Of a stretch of 64,000 nt of DNA, positions 30,162 through 41,017 are shown one piece after another. The first letter of the stretch is position 1. The number at the start of each line of letters is the position of its first letter. The stretch is from Lachnospiraceae bacterium. GTDB taxonomy: Bacteria > Bacillota > Clostridia > Lachnospirales > Lachnospiraceae. The notes beneath the pieces are model-generated. The model saw only the letters and a list, made by a program, of their open reading frames with translations, did not search any database and was not told the origin of the DNA. The DNA lies in assembly GCA_017623295.1 (NCBI GenBank), contig JAGAPK010000070.1, forward strand, positions 1-64,000, read 5' to 3'. A program made the translations under genes and the position numbers.

Positions 30162-31244
30162 TTGCGAATTGATTCCAGTAGTATAGGAATGGAATCCGCC
30201 AGAAGTTTTTCTTCTGCAACACTTAAATCTGCCTACTCCTTTCGAGGCAGAACAGAAAGCCTTACGGCCGACGCGGGAAATGGATTTCTTGGAGGTTTTC
30301 TGGGGATGGGAGACGAAGCACAGGATACCGGAGAAAGTGGTAATGCGCAGACCACTTTGGAAGATATCACGCTTCATTTTCAAAACCTGTCGAACACAGG
30401 AAGAATTGCAGCCAGCAATGAGGAAAAGGATGCAAAAGAAACAATCAGACAACACTGCATGAAGTATTTGATGTATCTGTTGTTTGGAGAACGCCACAAA
30501 GAAGAACTGGATGAACTTTGGAAAGATGAATGGACTGAGTCGGGATTTTCGACCAATTTGAGTAATTATGTCCCACAAACATACAACATGACAAAGTTTG
30601 TTTATCACAGTGAAACGGAAACGACAACTTTTTCAACAGAAGGTATGGTGAAAACCGCAGACGGAAGAGAAATCAACTTTAATCTGGATTTGGAAATGAG
30701 TAGAAGCTTTACAAAGTATTACGAAGAAAACTATACATATACCATAGCAGATTATACAGACCCGTTAGTCATCAATCTGGATAGCAATATTGCAGATTTG
30801 TCTGACCAGAAATTTTTCTTTGATTTAGACTGTGATGGAGAGAAAGAGGAAATTTCTACATTGAAATCCGGTAGTGGTTATCTGGCACTTGATTTAAACG
30901 AAGATGGTGTGATTAACGATGGAAGCGAATTATTTGGAACAAAATCCGGCAATGGTTTTGCTGACTTGGCAAAATATGATGCAGACGGTAACGGATGGAT
31001 TGATGAAAACGATTCCGTCTGGGAAAAGTTGTTAATCTGGACCAAAGATGAAGAAGGCAATGACAAGAAATATCATTTGTCGGAGGCTGGAGTAGGCGCT
31101 ATCTGCTTAAACAGTGCAGAGACGGAGTTTTCGCTGAATTCCATGAAAGACAATCATAACTATGGTGTTATCCGAAGAACAGGTATCTTCCTTTATGAAA
31201 ACGGAAATGTTGGAACTATGCAACATTTAGACCTGGCTCAATAG
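30162..31244 (+). CDS. Protein with calcium-binding (EF-hand/dockerin-like) loops
   Basis: 360 aa, no signal peptide seen. A Ser-rich N-terminus is followed by a helical part and a C-terminal half with DLDCDGEKEE, DLNEDGVINDGSELFG and DADGNGWIDENDSVWEKL, spaced acidic loops typical of Ca2+ binding. Family not recognised. The start is a TTG with an excellent AAAGGAGGT six bases upstream. A sigma-D-like promoter suggests expression with motility genes; that link is an inference. The stop is immediately followed by the -35 of the spoIID sigma-E promoter. Confidence 0.75.
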   Translation: MRIDSSSIGMESARSFSSATLKSAYSFRGRTESLTADAGNGFLGGFLGMGDEAQDTGESGNAQTTLEDITLHFQNLSNTGRIAASNEEKDAKETIRQHCMKYLMYLLFGERHKEELDELWKDEWTESGFSTNLSNYVPQTYNMTKFVYHSETETTTFSTEGMVKTADGREINFNLDLEMSRSFTKYYEENYTYTIADYTDPLVINLDSNIADLSDQKFFFDLDCDGEKEEISTLKSGSGYLALDLNEDGVINDGSELFGTKSGNGFADLAKYDADGNGWIDENDSVWEKLLIWTKDEEGNDKKYHLSEAGVGAICLNSAETEFSLNSMKDNHNYGVIRRTGIFLYENGNVGTMQHLDLAQ

Positions 31245-31272
31245 AATGAAACGGGACACTCTTACATACAAT
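31244..31272 (+). promoter_or_regulatory. Sigma-E promoter of spoIID
   Basis: GAATGAA (31244-31250), 14 nt, CATACAAT (31265-31272), matching the sigma-E -10 consensus CATACAnT. Start near 31279, only ~9 nt before the ATG. The -10 lies in the loop of the 31254-31286 hairpin. spoIID is sigma-E dependent in Bacillus subtilis. Confidence 0.65.
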
Positions 31273-31286
31273 GAAAAGAGGTGTCC
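31254..31286 (+). promoter_or_regulatory. RBS-sequestering hairpin at spoIID
   Basis: GGACACTCTT (31254-31263) pairs with AAGAGGTGTCC (31276-31286, one bulged C). The right arm contains the AGAGG ribosome site of spoIID. RNA from the upstream gene would fold and hide the site; RNA from the sigma-E start lacks the left arm. Confidence 0.6.
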
Positions 31287-31287
31287 T

Positions 31288-32295
31288 ATGAACTTATTTA
31301 AAATCGTCCAAAAAAGAACAAGCAAAAGGAAACAAAATGACAGTCCCTATCAGGAGGTCGGTGCGGTACTTTTGTTTGTTTTTTTATTGCCTTACGTGAT
31401 TTCCTGTTTATGGGGGCATGTTGGAGAGGAAACGGAAGTTTTGGCGGTAGGAATGGAGAAGGAAACGAATTATCTGGATGCGCAGTATGAAGTCGTACTT
31501 TCCGGAGAATGGGGCACAAGAACTCTGACAATGGAAGAATATCTGATACAGAAGCTTATACTTGTTATGCCGATAGAAGAAAATGGAATTTCTTACGAGG
31601 GAGAGGCGTTGAAGGCACAGGCGGTTTTGCTTCGTACGGAAGTCTGGAAATTGGTTGAGACGGATAACAAGGCTAATATTACCGGATATGACATTCGTAA
31701 ATATGATAAAGAAATAAACATGAGTCCTGAGCAGATGAATTTGTATGAAGAAGCGGTGCATGAAACAGATGGTATTATTTTATCTTATCAGGGAGAAGCG
31801 ATAAAAGCAGCCTATTTTACAGTCAGTAATGGACAGACAAGAGATGCGGAGCAGGTCTGGGGAAGCGGCAGTTATCCATATTTGAAAACAGTGGAATGTA
31901 AACAGGATATTCTGGCAGAGAACTATCAGAGTCAGGTGTGTGTGGAGAAAGAGAATTTTTATCAAATAATGAGTGAGACATTTGATGTTCATAAACAGGA
32001 ACAGATTGTATGGGGCGAATTGGAGCTATGCTTTGATGATGTGGGGTATGTGACGAAAGTAAAAACGAATGATATGGAATGTAGTGGAGAAGCGTTTCGA
32101 TATGCATTTGGACTAAATTCTGCCTGTTTTGAAATGGAATGGAAGGAAGATGAAGTCATTTTTCATGTAAAAGGTGTGGGGCATGGCTTTGGCATGAGCC
32201 AGTATGGTGCCAATATGCAAGCTGCCGAAGGAAAACGTTTTGATGAAATTTTAGAAAATTACTTTTTTCAGGCAGAATTAGTAAAAATTGAATAA
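31288..32295 (+). CDS. spoIID: Stage II sporulation protein D (SpoIID)
   Basis: 335 aa from ATG 31288, chosen because AGAGGTG lies just upstream. An N-terminal membrane anchor (~25-45) precedes the SpoIID/LytB domain: YEGEALKAQAVLLRTEV (with the glutamate expected to be catalytic), AYFTVSNGQTRDAEQVWG and GVGHGFGMSQYGANMQA near the end. SpoIID is a lytic transglycosylase that thins septal peptidoglycan during engulfment, made in the mother cell. It sits beside a SpoIIQ-like gene, as in many Clostridia. Confidence 0.9.
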   Translation: MNLFKIVQKRTSKRKQNDSPYQEVGAVLLFVFLLPYVISCLWGHVGEETEVLAVGMEKETNYLDAQYEVVLSGEWGTRTLTMEEYLIQKLILVMPIEENGISYEGEALKAQAVLLRTEVWKLVETDNKANITGYDIRKYDKEINMSPEQMNLYEEAVHETDGIILSYQGEAIKAAYFTVSNGQTRDAEQVWGSGSYPYLKTVECKQDILAENYQSQVCVEKENFYQIMSETFDVHKQEQIVWGELELCFDDVGYVTKVKTNDMECSGEAFRYAFGLNSACFEMEWKEDEVIFHVKGVGHGFGMSQYGANMQAAEGKRFDEILENYFFQAELVKIE

Positions 32296-37707: not shown

Positions 37708-38484
37708 ATGGCACAGAAGAAAAAAGTAACAGCGACCGTTGTGTCACAGAAAGAGATTGCAGAACAGATTTATGATTTGTGGCTGGAAACGGATCTGGCA
37801 AAGGATGCAAAACCGGGACAGTTTGTAGCGGTTTATCCGCAGAATGCCAGCACACTGCTTCCAAGACCAATCAGCATTTGTGAAGCAGATAAGGAGAAGG
37901 GCAGACTTCGTCTGGTATATCGAATTGCCGGTAAAGGAACGAAAGAATTTGCTTCCTATCAGCCGGGTGACAAGGTTTCTGTTCTGGGGGTACTTGGAAA
38001 CGGATTTCCATTAGAGAAAGCAGAAGGAAAAAAAGTATTCCTGATGGGTGGCGGTATTGGTATTCCGCCGATGTTACAGCTAGCCAAAGAGTTAAATGCA
38101 CAGAAACAGATTGTAGTAGGCTATCGTAATCAGGATTTGTTTTTACAGGAAGATTTAAGCCGTAACGGCGAAGTTTATATTGCAACAGAAGATGGCAGCG
38201 TAGGCAGCAAAGGAAATGTCATGGATGCCATTCGTGAAAACGCCTTGCAGGCAGATGTGATTATGGCTTGTGGACCGATGCCGATGCTTCGTGCGATTAA
38301 GAAATATGCAGAGGAAAATGGAATCGAAGCCTATATTTCTCTGGAAGAAAGAATGGCATGCGGTGTGGGAGCCTGTCTTGGCTGTGTATGCAAAACAAAA
38401 GAAATGGATCATCACTCTCATGTGAACAATGCACGTATCTGTACGGATGGTCCGGTATTTGAAGCAAAAGAGGTGGATATCTAA
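37708..38484 (+). CDS. pyrK: Dihydroorotate dehydrogenase electron-transfer subunit
   Basis: 258 aa. Carries FAD and a [2Fe-2S] cluster, passing electrons from PyrD to NAD+. FAD-binding RPISICEADKEKG, nucleotide motif MGGGIGIPPMLQLA, and cysteine cluster CGVGACLGCVCKTK with a fourth Cys in ARIC. Its stop overlaps the pyrD start by one base (TAATG), giving translational coupling. Confidence 0.95.
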   Translation: MAQKKKVTATVVSQKEIAEQIYDLWLETDLAKDAKPGQFVAVYPQNASTLLPRPISICEADKEKGRLRLVYRIAGKGTKEFASYQPGDKVSVLGVLGNGFPLEKAEGKKVFLMGGGIGIPPMLQLAKELNAQKQIVVGYRNQDLFLQEDLSRNGEVYIATEDGSVGSKGNVMDAIRENALQADVIMACGPMPMLRAIKKYAEENGIEAYISLEERMACGVGACLGCVCKTKEMDHHSHVNNARICTDGPVFEAKEVDI

Positions 38485-39386
38485 TGAATACAAAAGTGAC
38501 AATTGCAGGTGTAACATTCAAAAATCCTGTTATGACAGCATCCGGAACTTTCGGTTCCGGTATGGAATATGGTGAATTTGTAGATTTGAATAAGCTTGGT
38601 GCAGTCGTAACCAAAGGTGTTGCAAATGTACCTTGGCCGGGTAATCCGACTCCGCGTGTGGCAGAAGTTTATGGCGGTATGCTAAATGCTATCGGTTTAC
38701 AGAATCCGGGTATCGATGTGTTTGCCCAGAGAGATATTCCGTTTCTGAAGAAATACGATACCAAAATCATTGTTAACGTATGTGGAAAAACAGTGGAAGA
38801 TTATCTGGAGGTAGTGGAAAGACTTGGTGACGAGCCGGTGGATATGTTAGAAATTAATGTGTCCTGCCCGAATGTCAAAGAAGGTGCTATTGCTTTTGGA
38901 CAGAAAGCAGATTGTCTGTATGACATTACGTCCCAGATTAAGAAAAAGGCAAAACAGCCGATTATTATGAAACTCAGTCCGAATGTAACGGATATTACAG
39001 AGATGGCGAAAGCAGCAGAGGCAGCAGGCGCCGATGCACTTTCCATGATTAATACACTTACCGGAATGAAGATTGATATTGACCGCAGAAAGTTTGTGCT
39101 TGCCAACAAAACCGGTGGTATGTCCGGTCCGGCGCTTAAACCGATAGCAGTCCGTATGGTATATCAGACTGCTCAGGCAGTTAATATTCCGATTATTGGT
39201 ATGGGTGGTATTGCCACTGCCGAAGATGCGATTGAATTCCTCCTTGCGGGTGCAACAGCCGTAGCAGTTGGAGCTATGAACTTCGTTAATCCATATGCAA
39301 CCGTAGAAGTGGTAGAAGGTATCGAAGCCTATATGAAGAAATATGGAGTAGAAGATATTAATGAATTAATCGGAGCAGTAGAATAA
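38484..39386 (+). CDS. pyrD: Dihydroorotate dehydrogenase B, catalytic subunit
   Basis: 300 aa, class 1B. FMN enzyme oxidising dihydroorotate to orotate. Seen: TASGTFGSGMEYGEF, GLQNPGIDVF, INVSCPNVKEG with the catalytic cysteine, and IPIIGMGGIATAEDAIEFLLAGA. Acts with PyrK. Followed by a terminator that is also the leader of sipL. Confidence 0.95.
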   Translation: MNTKVTIAGVTFKNPVMTASGTFGSGMEYGEFVDLNKLGAVVTKGVANVPWPGNPTPRVAEVYGGMLNAIGLQNPGIDVFAQRDIPFLKKYDTKIIVNVCGKTVEDYLEVVERLGDEPVDMLEINVSCPNVKEGAIAFGQKADCLYDITSQIKKKAKQPIIMKLSPNVTDITEMAKAAEAAGADALSMINTLTGMKIDIDRRKFVLANKTGGMSGPALKPIAVRMVYQTAQAVNIPIIGMGGIATAEDAIEFLLAGATAVAVGAMNFVNPYATVEVVEGIEAYMKKYGVEDINELIGAVE

Positions 39387-39402
39387 CAGGAAAAATGAAT
39401 AG

Positions 39403-39431
39403 GAATATAATACCTCCACGCGACATACAAT
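39403..39431 (+). promoter_or_regulatory. Sigma-E promoter of sipL
   Basis: GAATATA (39403-39409), 14 nt, CATACAAT (39424-39431): near-perfect sigma-E promoter with the same spacing as at spoIID. Start near 39438. The -10 lies in the loop of the pyrD terminator hairpin. Confidence 0.7.
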
Positions 39432-39460
39432 ACAGTAAGTATACGCATGGAGGTATTTTT
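39409..39460 (+). terminator. pyrD terminator whose 3' arm is the sipL ribosome site
   Basis: AATACCTCCA (39409-39418) pairs perfectly with TGGAGGTATT (39448-39457), followed by T5 and then the GTG start of sipL. Inner GCG/CGC pairs add support. For pyr read-through RNA it is a terminator and hides the SD TGGAGG; sigma-E RNA begins in the loop and lacks the left arm. Confidence 0.75.
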
Positions 39461-41017
39461 GTGGAATTAGTTAAGAAAAAAATACATATGGACCGTATTG
39501 CGAACAAAGCTGGAACCCAGATGGTGTTGGAAGAGGATGTAAATATATCGGATAACAGACCGGATGCAAGTCATCTGATAGGTGCCAAGGGGGACATTGT
39601 TCTAGAAGAAGTCCGTGTCGGTGAGGATCGTGTTAATTTAAAAGGTAAATTACAGGTGCAGATGTTATATCTGACAGAAGAGGAAGGTTTGTGTGCCAGC
39701 ATGAATGCATCGATTCCATTTGAAGAAAAAATCAATATGGAAGGGATAAAAAATGGAGATACAATAATTCCATCATGGACGATTGAAGATTTGAGTGTTG
39801 GTTTAATCAATTCCAGAAAACTCAGTGTACAGGCAATGATTTCTATTACGTTGGAATGGGAAGAAAAAATGGAGCAGGAAGCGGCAGTTGATATTTATCA
39901 TGATGAACCGGTAGAATATCGCAAGCAGACTTATCCTATTTTACAGGTTGCTGTGAATATTAAAGATATTTTCCGTATCAAAGAAGAAATGGAATTGCCA
40001 AGTCATATGCCGAATGCTTTTCAGATGATTTGGAACAGCATCACATTAAATAACGTGGAGTTCAAAGCGCTGGATGAGAAAATTGTCTTACAGGGTGAAA
40101 TGAAAGCTTTTTTCATATACGAAGGAGAGGGAGATAATGACAAAACACTTTGGTATGAGAATACAGTACCGTTCAGTGGTACGGTAGAATGTCATGGCTG
40201 TCGTGAAAATATGATACCGGACATTCGATACACGATATCTCAGTGTAATGTGGAAATCAGACCTGATTTAGATGGAGAAGAAAGAGTATTCTGCGTAGAA
40301 TGTGTACTGGATTTGGATATTCGATTGTATGAGGAAGAAAATCTGGAAGTGCTGTCTGATATTTATGGGGTAGCAAAAGAAATTGAAGCGGTAACTACGG
40401 AAGTACCATTAAAACGTTTGCTTTTTCATACCGGAGGAAAATGCAAGGTGGCAGACCATGCCAAAATCCAGAATACAGAGATGCATATGTATCAGTTGAT
40501 TCACAGCGAAGGTGAAATTCAGATAGCAGATCAGACAATTGTGGAAAATGGTATTTCGGTAACAGGAACTTTGTGTGTAACCACGATTTATCTTTGTACA
40601 AACGGAAAGAACACATTGTATACAACAAAATCCATCCTGCCATTTCAACAAGTAATTGAGGTACCGGGAATTAGTGAAAACGGTATTTATCGGATTCAGT
40701 GGAATCTGGAACAATTGGTTGTTACGATGTTAGATAGTGATGAATTGGATATTAAGGCGGTATTAAGTTATCAGGTAATGGCGTTTACCTCGGATGTAGC
40801 AGATTTAATTACAGACATTAACGTCAGTGATTTGGATATGAATAAAATCAGCGAATTACCGGGAATGGTAATTTATATTGCAAGAGCAGGTGATACCCTA
40901 TGGGACATTGGCAAGCGATACTATGTGCCGATTGCACAACTGAAAGTAGTGAATGAACTAGCAGGCGAAGAGATAAAAATGGGTGATAAAATTCTTGTAA
41001 TTAAGGGAATGAGTTAA
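39461..41017 (+). CDS. sipL: SipL-like spore morphogenesis protein (DUF3794/SPOCS + LysM)
   Basis: 518 aa from GTG 39461, with TGGAGGT six bases upstream. Repeated DUF3794/SPOCS modules (for example AGTQMVLEEDVNISDNRPDA and the KISITLEW-type strands) and a C-terminal LysM: YIARAGDTLWDIGKRYYVPIAQLKVVNEL. This is the layout of Clostridioides difficile SipL, which binds SpoIVA and joins the coat to the forespore. No signal peptide, as expected for a mother-cell cytoplasmic protein. A sigma-E promoter is present. Confidence 0.88.
   Translation: MELVKKKIHMDRIANKAGTQMVLEEDVNISDNRPDASHLIGAKGDIVLEEVRVGEDRVNLKGKLQVQMLYLTEEEGLCASMNASIPFEEKINMEGIKNGDTIIPSWTIEDLSVGLINSRKLSVQAMISITLEWEEKMEQEAAVDIYHDEPVEYRKQTYPILQVAVNIKDIFRIKEEMELPSHMPNAFQMIWNSITLNNVEFKALDEKIVLQGEMKAFFIYEGEGDNDKTLWYENTVPFSGTVECHGCRENMIPDIRYTISQCNVEIRPDLDGEERVFCVECVLDLDIRLYEEENLEVLSDIYGVAKEIEAVTTEVPLKRLLFHTGGKCKVADHAKIQNTEMHMYQLIHSEGEIQIADQTIVENGISVTGTLCVTTIYLCTNGKNTLYTTKSILPFQQVIEVPGISENGIYRIQWNLEQLVVTMLDSDELDIKAVLSYQVMAFTSDVADLITDINVSDLDMNKISELPGMVIYIARAGDTLWDIGKRYYVPIAQLKVVNELAGEEIKMGDKILVIKGMS

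Follow-up and report, generated by a model that had tools for sequence, protein, structure and literature searches.

A hairpin that hides the sipL Shine-Dalgarno sequence around a sigma-E-type promoter: a probable transcript-length-dependent translation lock on mother-cell genes in one lineage of Clostridia

Why would a spore gene that lies directly behind a pyr operon carry a promoter, a hairpin and a ribosome-binding site nested within one another just ahead of its start codon? The gene is sipL of a Lachnospiraceae bacterium, and it was examined in a stretch of 64,000 nucleotides (hereafter the window; GenBank assembly GCA_017623295.1, contig JAGAPK010000070.1, positions 1 to 64,000 of the forward strand, on which the pyrD, sipL and spoIID features described below are encoded). 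There, a sigma-E-type promoter stands inside a hairpin whose 3' arm holds the sipL Shine-Dalgarno sequence (SD). The sequence anatomy, the predicted folding, the conservation and covariation of the hairpin arms and the limits of the element among lineages were all computed. They lead us to consider it probable that the sipL element is a translation lock governed by transcript length, with a sigma-E promoter nested inside it, and that the lock also occurs on spoIIID, on spoIVA and probably on spoIID.

Upstream of sipL, the -35 element GAATATA (39403..39409) is followed after exactly 14 nt by the -10 element CATACAAT (39424..39431), both read from the sequence. Sigma-E promoters combine an ATA-type -35, a spacing of about 14 nt and a CATACA-T-type -10, and the window's sipL promoter has all three. 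The spacer between these elements contains the 5' arm of the hairpin (39409..39422), identified from the fold and from covariation with the 3' arm, the -10 element lies in the loop, and the 3' arm (39444..39457) includes the SD GGAGG at 39449-39453. In the main stem AATACCTCCA (39409-39418) pairs with TGGAGGTATT (39448-39457), and beyond one mismatch three further pairs are gained (39420-39422/39444-39446). Five T residues (39456..39460), two of which double as stem bases, form the spacer between the SD and the GTG start codon (39461-39463) and a possible terminator U-tract. The gene that follows, sipL (39461..41017), encodes SPOCS and LysM domains (Pfam SipL 5.5e-51, LysM 8e-8). The 101-nt stretch 39380-39480 has a predicted folding energy of -21.3 kcal/mol (z -4.35), and none of 200 shuffled sequences was as stable. 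An earlier sequence-only reading had located the promoter, the hairpin arms, the SD in the 3' arm, the T-run and the GTG accurately, and the near-perfect sigma-E promoter that it described in the loop (GAATATA-14-CATACAAT) is present.

Two further features overlap this region. One, in this genome, is a sigma-70-like match (ATAACA-17-TATAAT, 39383-39411) that shares bases with the sigma-E -35 and with the 5' arm. The other is an ATG at 39395, in frame with sipL, which extends the reading frame upstream across the hairpin (an open reading frame, ORF, of 540 amino acids), and automated annotation may over-extend sipL for that reason. We judged this longer frame unlikely to be the one used, as same-genus loci have the GTG and its SD in common; the start is GTG in 31/31 scored same-genus loci.

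How deeply the SD is buried was expressed as the free energy required to open it in an RNA running from -80 to +6. The comparison set comprised 283 background starts, drawn from the window together with twenty segments, each 18.5-20 kb long, of related genomes, and it excluded any start that also belonged to a tested gene set. Opening cost was at least 11.5 kcal/mol in 30/31 scored same-genus sipL loci (29 of the 30 loci read, plus two more fetched), against a background median of 2.6 kcal/mol with 12/283 starts at 8 kcal/mol or above, the background being slightly raised because at least three of the frames left in it (L243, L248, L259) are sipL or spoIID with a wrong start. A sigma-E-like promoter was found in 29 of these 31 sipL leaders, with the 14-nt spacing in 27, and the CATA of the -10 is invariant in a 33-row sipL alignment; among background leaders the promoter occurred in 2/283 and promoter and lock together in 0/283. 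Chance complementarity, by which an SD might pair easily with any C-rich spacer, can point to the dozen background starts of comparable opening cost. Because of the excess in opening cost over background, the absence of any background start with both promoter and lock, and the covariation of the arms described below, we regard chance as scarcely conceivable for the sipL element. Opening-cost counts leave out sipL loci L010, L063, L072 and L076 (of 50), spoIID loci L107, L108, L110, L112 and L122 (of 30), spoIIIAA locus L216 (of 30), two of 30 yqfC loci, and, from two spoIIID sets introduced below, four of 80 named loci and two of 29 outside-order loci (L349, L364); the sipL start of L079 was mis-called in this set, and the ATG start of the same genome is L260.

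If the hairpin matters as a structure, its two arms should belong together within a species. When the 3' arms were dealt anew among species, the sipL stem had on average 305 paired cells (standard deviation 4.7) against 335/390 with cognate arms, a value reached in 0/2000 deals, although this count (30 distinct rows of 33) uses a register picked from each cognate pair and is thereby biased toward the observed value. One stem position reads A-T, C-G, G-C or G-T across species. No register choice enters the second test, in which arms were exchanged between species in the folding script. The exchange weakened the lock from 15.7 to 12.7 kcal/mol at sipL (n = 28), from 9.1 to 6.6 at spoIID (n = 25), from 17.7 to 11.3 at same-genus spoIVA (n = 11) and from 11.9 to 7.6 at spoIIID (n = 102), and for each of these genes 0/2000 exchanges reached the cognate mean. 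In other families the cognate mean was reached in 24/2000 exchanges for sipL, 18/2000 for spoIVA and 1/2000 for spoIIID; for yqfC the figure was 13/2000. Related species are not independent and all of these swap counts are inflated by it, an effect for which the control gene spoIIIAA, drawn from the same genome set, corrects in part: there the exchange had no effect (3.8 vs 3.7 kcal/mol, with 745/2000 reaching the cognate mean). The nesting of a sigma-E-type promoter in an SD-hiding hairpin, which the sequence-only reading had proposed for sipL and spoIID, is conserved at both genes, with covarying arms.

These comparisons also bear on whether the palindrome acts as DNA, for instance as an operator or a cruciform at the promoter, rather than as RNA. 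The palindrome does bracket the promoter, and SpoIIID represses sipL and spoIVA in C. difficile, according to PMC3789822. Yet arm sequences vary between genes and species while their pairing is kept, the 3' arm coincides with the SD, and at spoIIIAA, which likewise has a sigma-E-type promoter, cognate arms pair no better than swapped ones. Moreover, G-T cells exceed A-C cells (26 vs 12 in sipL, 16 vs 11 in spoIIID), a weak sign of structure in sense-strand RNA. We therefore think a purely DNA-level role very unlikely.

How, then, would the SD ever be read? From promoter geometry, sigma-E transcription is predicted to start about 7 nt past the -10 (39436..39440), which is 3' of the 5' arm. The corresponding position lies 9-11 nt before the SD in 31/31 sipL leaders, and in the predicted sigma-E RNA the cost of opening the SD falls to a median of 2.1 kcal/mol (maximum 7.4, n = 31) for sipL and of 1.9 kcal/mol (maximum 2.2, n = 11) for same-genus spoIVA. 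Initial scores of these short RNAs had relied on a crude -10 search, by which only 1/25 spoIID leaders was scored and the -10 of some other leaders was misplaced, and they were redone for sipL, spoIVA and spoIID. According to the lock that we favour, an RNA polymerase arriving from upstream, through pyr read-through or pervasive transcription, would copy both arms, so that the RNA would fold and the sipL SD would be buried; with a U-run after the stem, such read-through RNA may end at this point as well. Sigma-E polymerase, active in the mother cell, would start at about 39438 and yield a short leader in which the SD is open and sipL can be made. In this lineage, spoIIID and spoIVA would be guarded by the same device, as probably would spoIID. 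We infer in this way a start site, a translational block, termination and a purpose, namely that spore genes be kept silent outside the mother cell, and the translational step draws on analogy with T4 gene e, I-TevI and B. subtilis sigG.

A stable, conserved structure that hides an SD is also the usual output form of leaders controlled by a ligand or a protein, such as riboswitches and thermometers, and the sipL mRNA might carry one. Against this, no Rfam match reached the gathering score anywhere in the window (the single match in the element scored far under the threshold of its family), the CATA of the sigma-E -10 is among the invariant letters of the loop, and the predicted sigma-E RNA is without the 5' arm altogether. 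On these family and loop comparisons we give such a leader only a slim chance.

To which gene does the hairpin belong? The sequence-only reading had called it the pyrD terminator, after the dihydroorotate dehydrogenase gene directly upstream (38484..39386; Pfam DHO_dh 1e-88, NCBIfam TIGR01037). Protein searches detected sipL in 54/61 genomes, the source genome included, and the upstream DNA of 30 same-genus sipL loci was compared with the window's PyrD by tblastn. A PyrD match was found upstream in 19/30, two loci (L010, L014) having too little upstream DNA. Among the 28 assessable loci, pyrD lay directly upstream in 17 and was absent or non-adjacent in 11 (L007, L011, L012, L019, L020, L021, L024, L026, L029, L030 and L031). 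The lock persists in 10 of these 11, with an opening cost of 11.5 kcal/mol or more, and we therefore assign the hairpin to the sipL leader; pyrD was ruled out as its owner, and the pyrD label is not borne out. The exception, L024, has lost the 5' arm, and its nearest upstream ORF lies on the other strand by a crude caller. The same caller placed the nearest upstream ORF on the opposite strand at L007 and L012, where the lock is nevertheless kept.

The sequence-only reading had counted two such elements in the window, the second at spoIID. That second case is real (31244-31290) and has the same 14-nt spacing, although it is without a T-run. A sigma-E-type promoter, GAATGAA-14-CATACAAT (31244..31272), overlaps a hairpin, GGACAC.TCTT / AAGAGGTGTCC (31254..31286), whose 3' arm, judged by sequence and opening cost, contains the SD; spoIID itself runs from an ATG at 31288 (31288..32295; Pfam SpoIID 6.3e-8; TIGR02870 8.4e-53, below the curated cut-off). 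The spoIID lock was at least 5 kcal/mol in 24/25 scored leaders and at least 8 kcal/mol in 13/25. Two cases were nonetheless too few, since spoIIID and spoIVA have the same design. The source genome's spoIIID starts at C22:75136, on the same contig and outside the window (TIGR02844, 134 bits). Its lock was at least 12.3 kcal/mol in 15/15 same-genus loci and at least 8 kcal/mol in 9/15 loci of other families (24/30 at 8 kcal/mol or more in total). A further set of named spoIIID loci, the best 80 of at least 592 confirmed loci in GTDB contigs, mostly titled Lachnospiraceae or its genera and partly overlapping the spoIIID set of the relatives, had 56/76 scored loci at 8 kcal/mol or more and 68/76 at 5 or more; four of the 76 starts (L287, L288, L292, L300) lie behind a second hairpin. 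The same-genus spoIIID start is TTG in 15/15 loci, and this TTG often closes the T-run. For spoIVA, which was not found in the source assembly (88% complete), the lock was at least 13.6 kcal/mol in 11/11 scored same-genus loci. The promoter expression was matched in 15/15 same-genus and 58/76 named spoIIID leaders. In C. difficile, sipL, spoIVA and spoIIID are sigma-E genes, the first two with a mapped sigma-E promoter ahead of them and the third with a listed one, and sigma-E promoters have an ATA motif (PMC3789822).

Several side observations concern these leaders. The spoIID -10 is very near the SD (31265-31290 and the leaders of the genus), which would place the start nearer than 7 nt or give an almost leaderless RNA. 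A 360-amino-acid ORF just upstream of spoIID (30162-31244) had no Pfam match at E 0.001, and in 27/30 same-genus spoIID loci the ORF closest upstream runs in the direction of spoIID and is about 1.0-1.2 kb long. In spoIIID leaders L287, L288, L292 and L300, the second hairpin follows the usual promoter hairpin and immediately precedes an ATG.

Does the hairpin also end transcripts? T-runs of at least four between SD and start codon were present in 31/31 sipL, 11/11 spoIVA and 14/15 spoIIID loci of the genus, compared with 25/283 background starts; they occurred in 34/76 named spoIIID, 1/29 spoIIIAA and 1/25 spoIID leaders. The form of an intrinsic terminator, a G+C-containing stem followed by a U-tract, is present, the T5 of sipL being short and partly within the stem. 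Termination is thus a plausible prediction for sipL, spoIVA and spoIIID, and it cannot be the function that all the genes share because T-runs are nearly absent from spoIID leaders. One could go further and take the element to be chiefly the intrinsic terminator of the upstream gene, its overlap with SD and promoter being incidental and the hiding of the SD a by-product. The regularity with which the SD arm is followed by a T-run in the genus at sipL, spoIVA and spoIIID speaks for this. Against it, spoIID retains the hairpin with hardly any T-runs, fewer than half of the named spoIIID leaders have one, the element tracks sipL rather than pyrD, and a simple terminator scan came back without this element, whose loop exceeds the length that the scan allows. 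We regard a mere terminator as unlikely, and return to the translation lock.

How rare is this arrangement? In the 2.78 Mb assembly, GAATATA-N12-16-CATACAAT occurs once. The genome-wide search that the sequence-only reading had proposed was made with sequence patterns. The strict hairpin-promoter pattern CCTCC-CATACANT-GGAGG had 1 forward match in the assembly against 0 for reversed-pattern controls. The looser CCTCC-CATANANT-GGAGG matched in 63/77 genomes of the genus and proves little alone because its reversed control also matched in a number of them. Since CATACANT by itself shows no enrichment in the window (14 matches against 11.2 expected), what is unusual is the combination of parts. 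The strict promoter pattern had 14 matches in the assembly (reversed-pattern control 4+4). Annotation covered four of them: three are at sporulation genes (spoIID, sipL and spoIIID), all with the hairpin, and the fourth (L084), at what by eye is an apparent gene start, is without one. A broader pattern, CATA-N16-17-CATANANT, had 48 matches against 22 for its reversed control, and by eye none of the 30 readable matches was clearly of this design except spoIIID. As a separate observation, a CCTCCGC...CATA.A.T...GGCGGAGG match recurs elsewhere in four genomes (G002:C113:7374, G062:C8:11801, G015:C34:11121, G033:C14:17486), possibly in coding sequence.

A number of results weigh against the lock as we read it, or narrow it. 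They include, from what has been said above, the register bias of the stem count, the relatedness of the species, the loss of the lock at L024 beside its retention at L007 and L012, and the T-run shortfall in the named spoIIID set. At spoIID, 16/25 leaders have the start predicted 7 nt past the -10 within the SD or beyond it (0/31 for sipL, 0/11 for same-genus spoIVA), so that the sigma-E RNA may retain an incomplete SD; the unlocking step is least secure at spoIID because its predicted start so often cuts the SD. For spoIIID, the predicted sigma-E RNA is less open (median 4.1 kcal/mol by the crude -10 search, n = 22), and per-column pairing in the same-genus alignment is weak, 23/500 shuffles being as paired. 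The promoter expression was matched in only 10/25 spoIID and 4/11 same-genus spoIVA leaders and, in other families, in 2/15 sipL, 8/19 spoIVA and 5/15 spoIIID leaders. Locks of at least 8 kcal/mol are patchier in other families as well, at 4/15 for sipL and 5/19 for spoIVA. Outside the order, spoIIID leaders resemble the background (median 2.9 kcal/mol, 4/27 at 8 or more), the 27 being the scored members of 29 new loci from the top-scoring portion of the 91 genomes in which a match was found. Nor is the lock regulon-wide, because two further sigma-E genes mostly lack it, spoIIIAA with 5/29 loci at 8 kcal/mol or more and yqfC with 4/28, the yqfC start calls in the genus being doubtful and without a clear SD.

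The leaders of these two genes have features of their own. Many same-genus spoIIIAA promoter spacers (L221-L239; L222, on C31, is that of the source genome) hold a block like TTGGACAA in place of the hairpin. We take this block to resemble the SpoIIID box, which would fit SpoIIID repression of spoIIIA. Several same-genus yqfC leaders (L391-L401) share a near-palindrome, CATATAGT...ACTATGAG, without a clear SD, and in L401 this near-palindrome has grown into a long hairpin.

The mechanism itself is already known. In phage T4, long early and middle RNAs of gene e (lysozyme), I-TevI and other homing endonucleases fold over the SD, whereas RNA from the late promoter lacks the 5' part and is translated, and lysozyme synthesis is 100-fold lower from the long RNAs (PMC2988022 for the former, PMC3014915 for both). 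The likeness lies in an SD-hiding hairpin in long RNA and a promoter just upstream of the gene whose RNA, here by prediction, is without the 5' part. The T4 switch, in contrast, serves phage timing with a phage late sigma factor, while here a host sporulation sigma factor and several chromosomal genes are involved, and a U-run mostly follows the stem, at three of the four genes. In B. subtilis, the large hairpin of sigG (spoIIIG) is precluded in transcripts that start at the gene's own promoter, and the gene starts with GTG (PMC5942855, citing Masuda 1988 and Sun 1991). The GTG start is shared with sipL, for which exclusion of the hairpin from own-promoter RNA is likewise predicted. There, however, a single forespore gene of Bacillus (sigma-F/sigma-G) is concerned, whereas here the genes are mother-cell sigma-E genes (sipL, spoIID, spoIIID, spoIVA) of one order of Clostridia, with covariation across species. 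At IS10 and IS50, the transposase SD is buried in RNA that reads in from outside and stays accessible in the element's own RNA, an arrangement that defends a mobile element against its neighbours' promoters rather than providing cell-type control. In the open-licence literature searched, we found no report of repeated use of such a lock on the mother-cell sigma-E genes of one bacterial order. If our reading is true, this would be the first case known to us of a T4-type lock recurring across a bacterial cell-type regulon.

Sporulation genes are usually held to be silenced by promoter choice. We lean, if narrowly, towards the broader view that in this order of Clostridia the length of the transcript serves as a second key, through a recurrent device of about 60 bp in which terminator, SD, start codon and sigma-E promoter are combined and by which spore-coat, engulfment and regulator genes would be translatable only from RNA initiated by sigma-E, whatever gene lies upstream. 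The device would be a compact promoter, terminator and ribosome-binding part, for which the variants across species already amount to natural mutagenesis. If the lock is real, this lineage adds a built-in RNA filter through which key spore genes cannot be read from transcripts not started by sigma-E. That would account for spore genes standing directly behind housekeeping operons such as pyr, and RNA-seq reads from vegetative gut Lachnospiraceae that cover such genes would not necessarily indicate protein.
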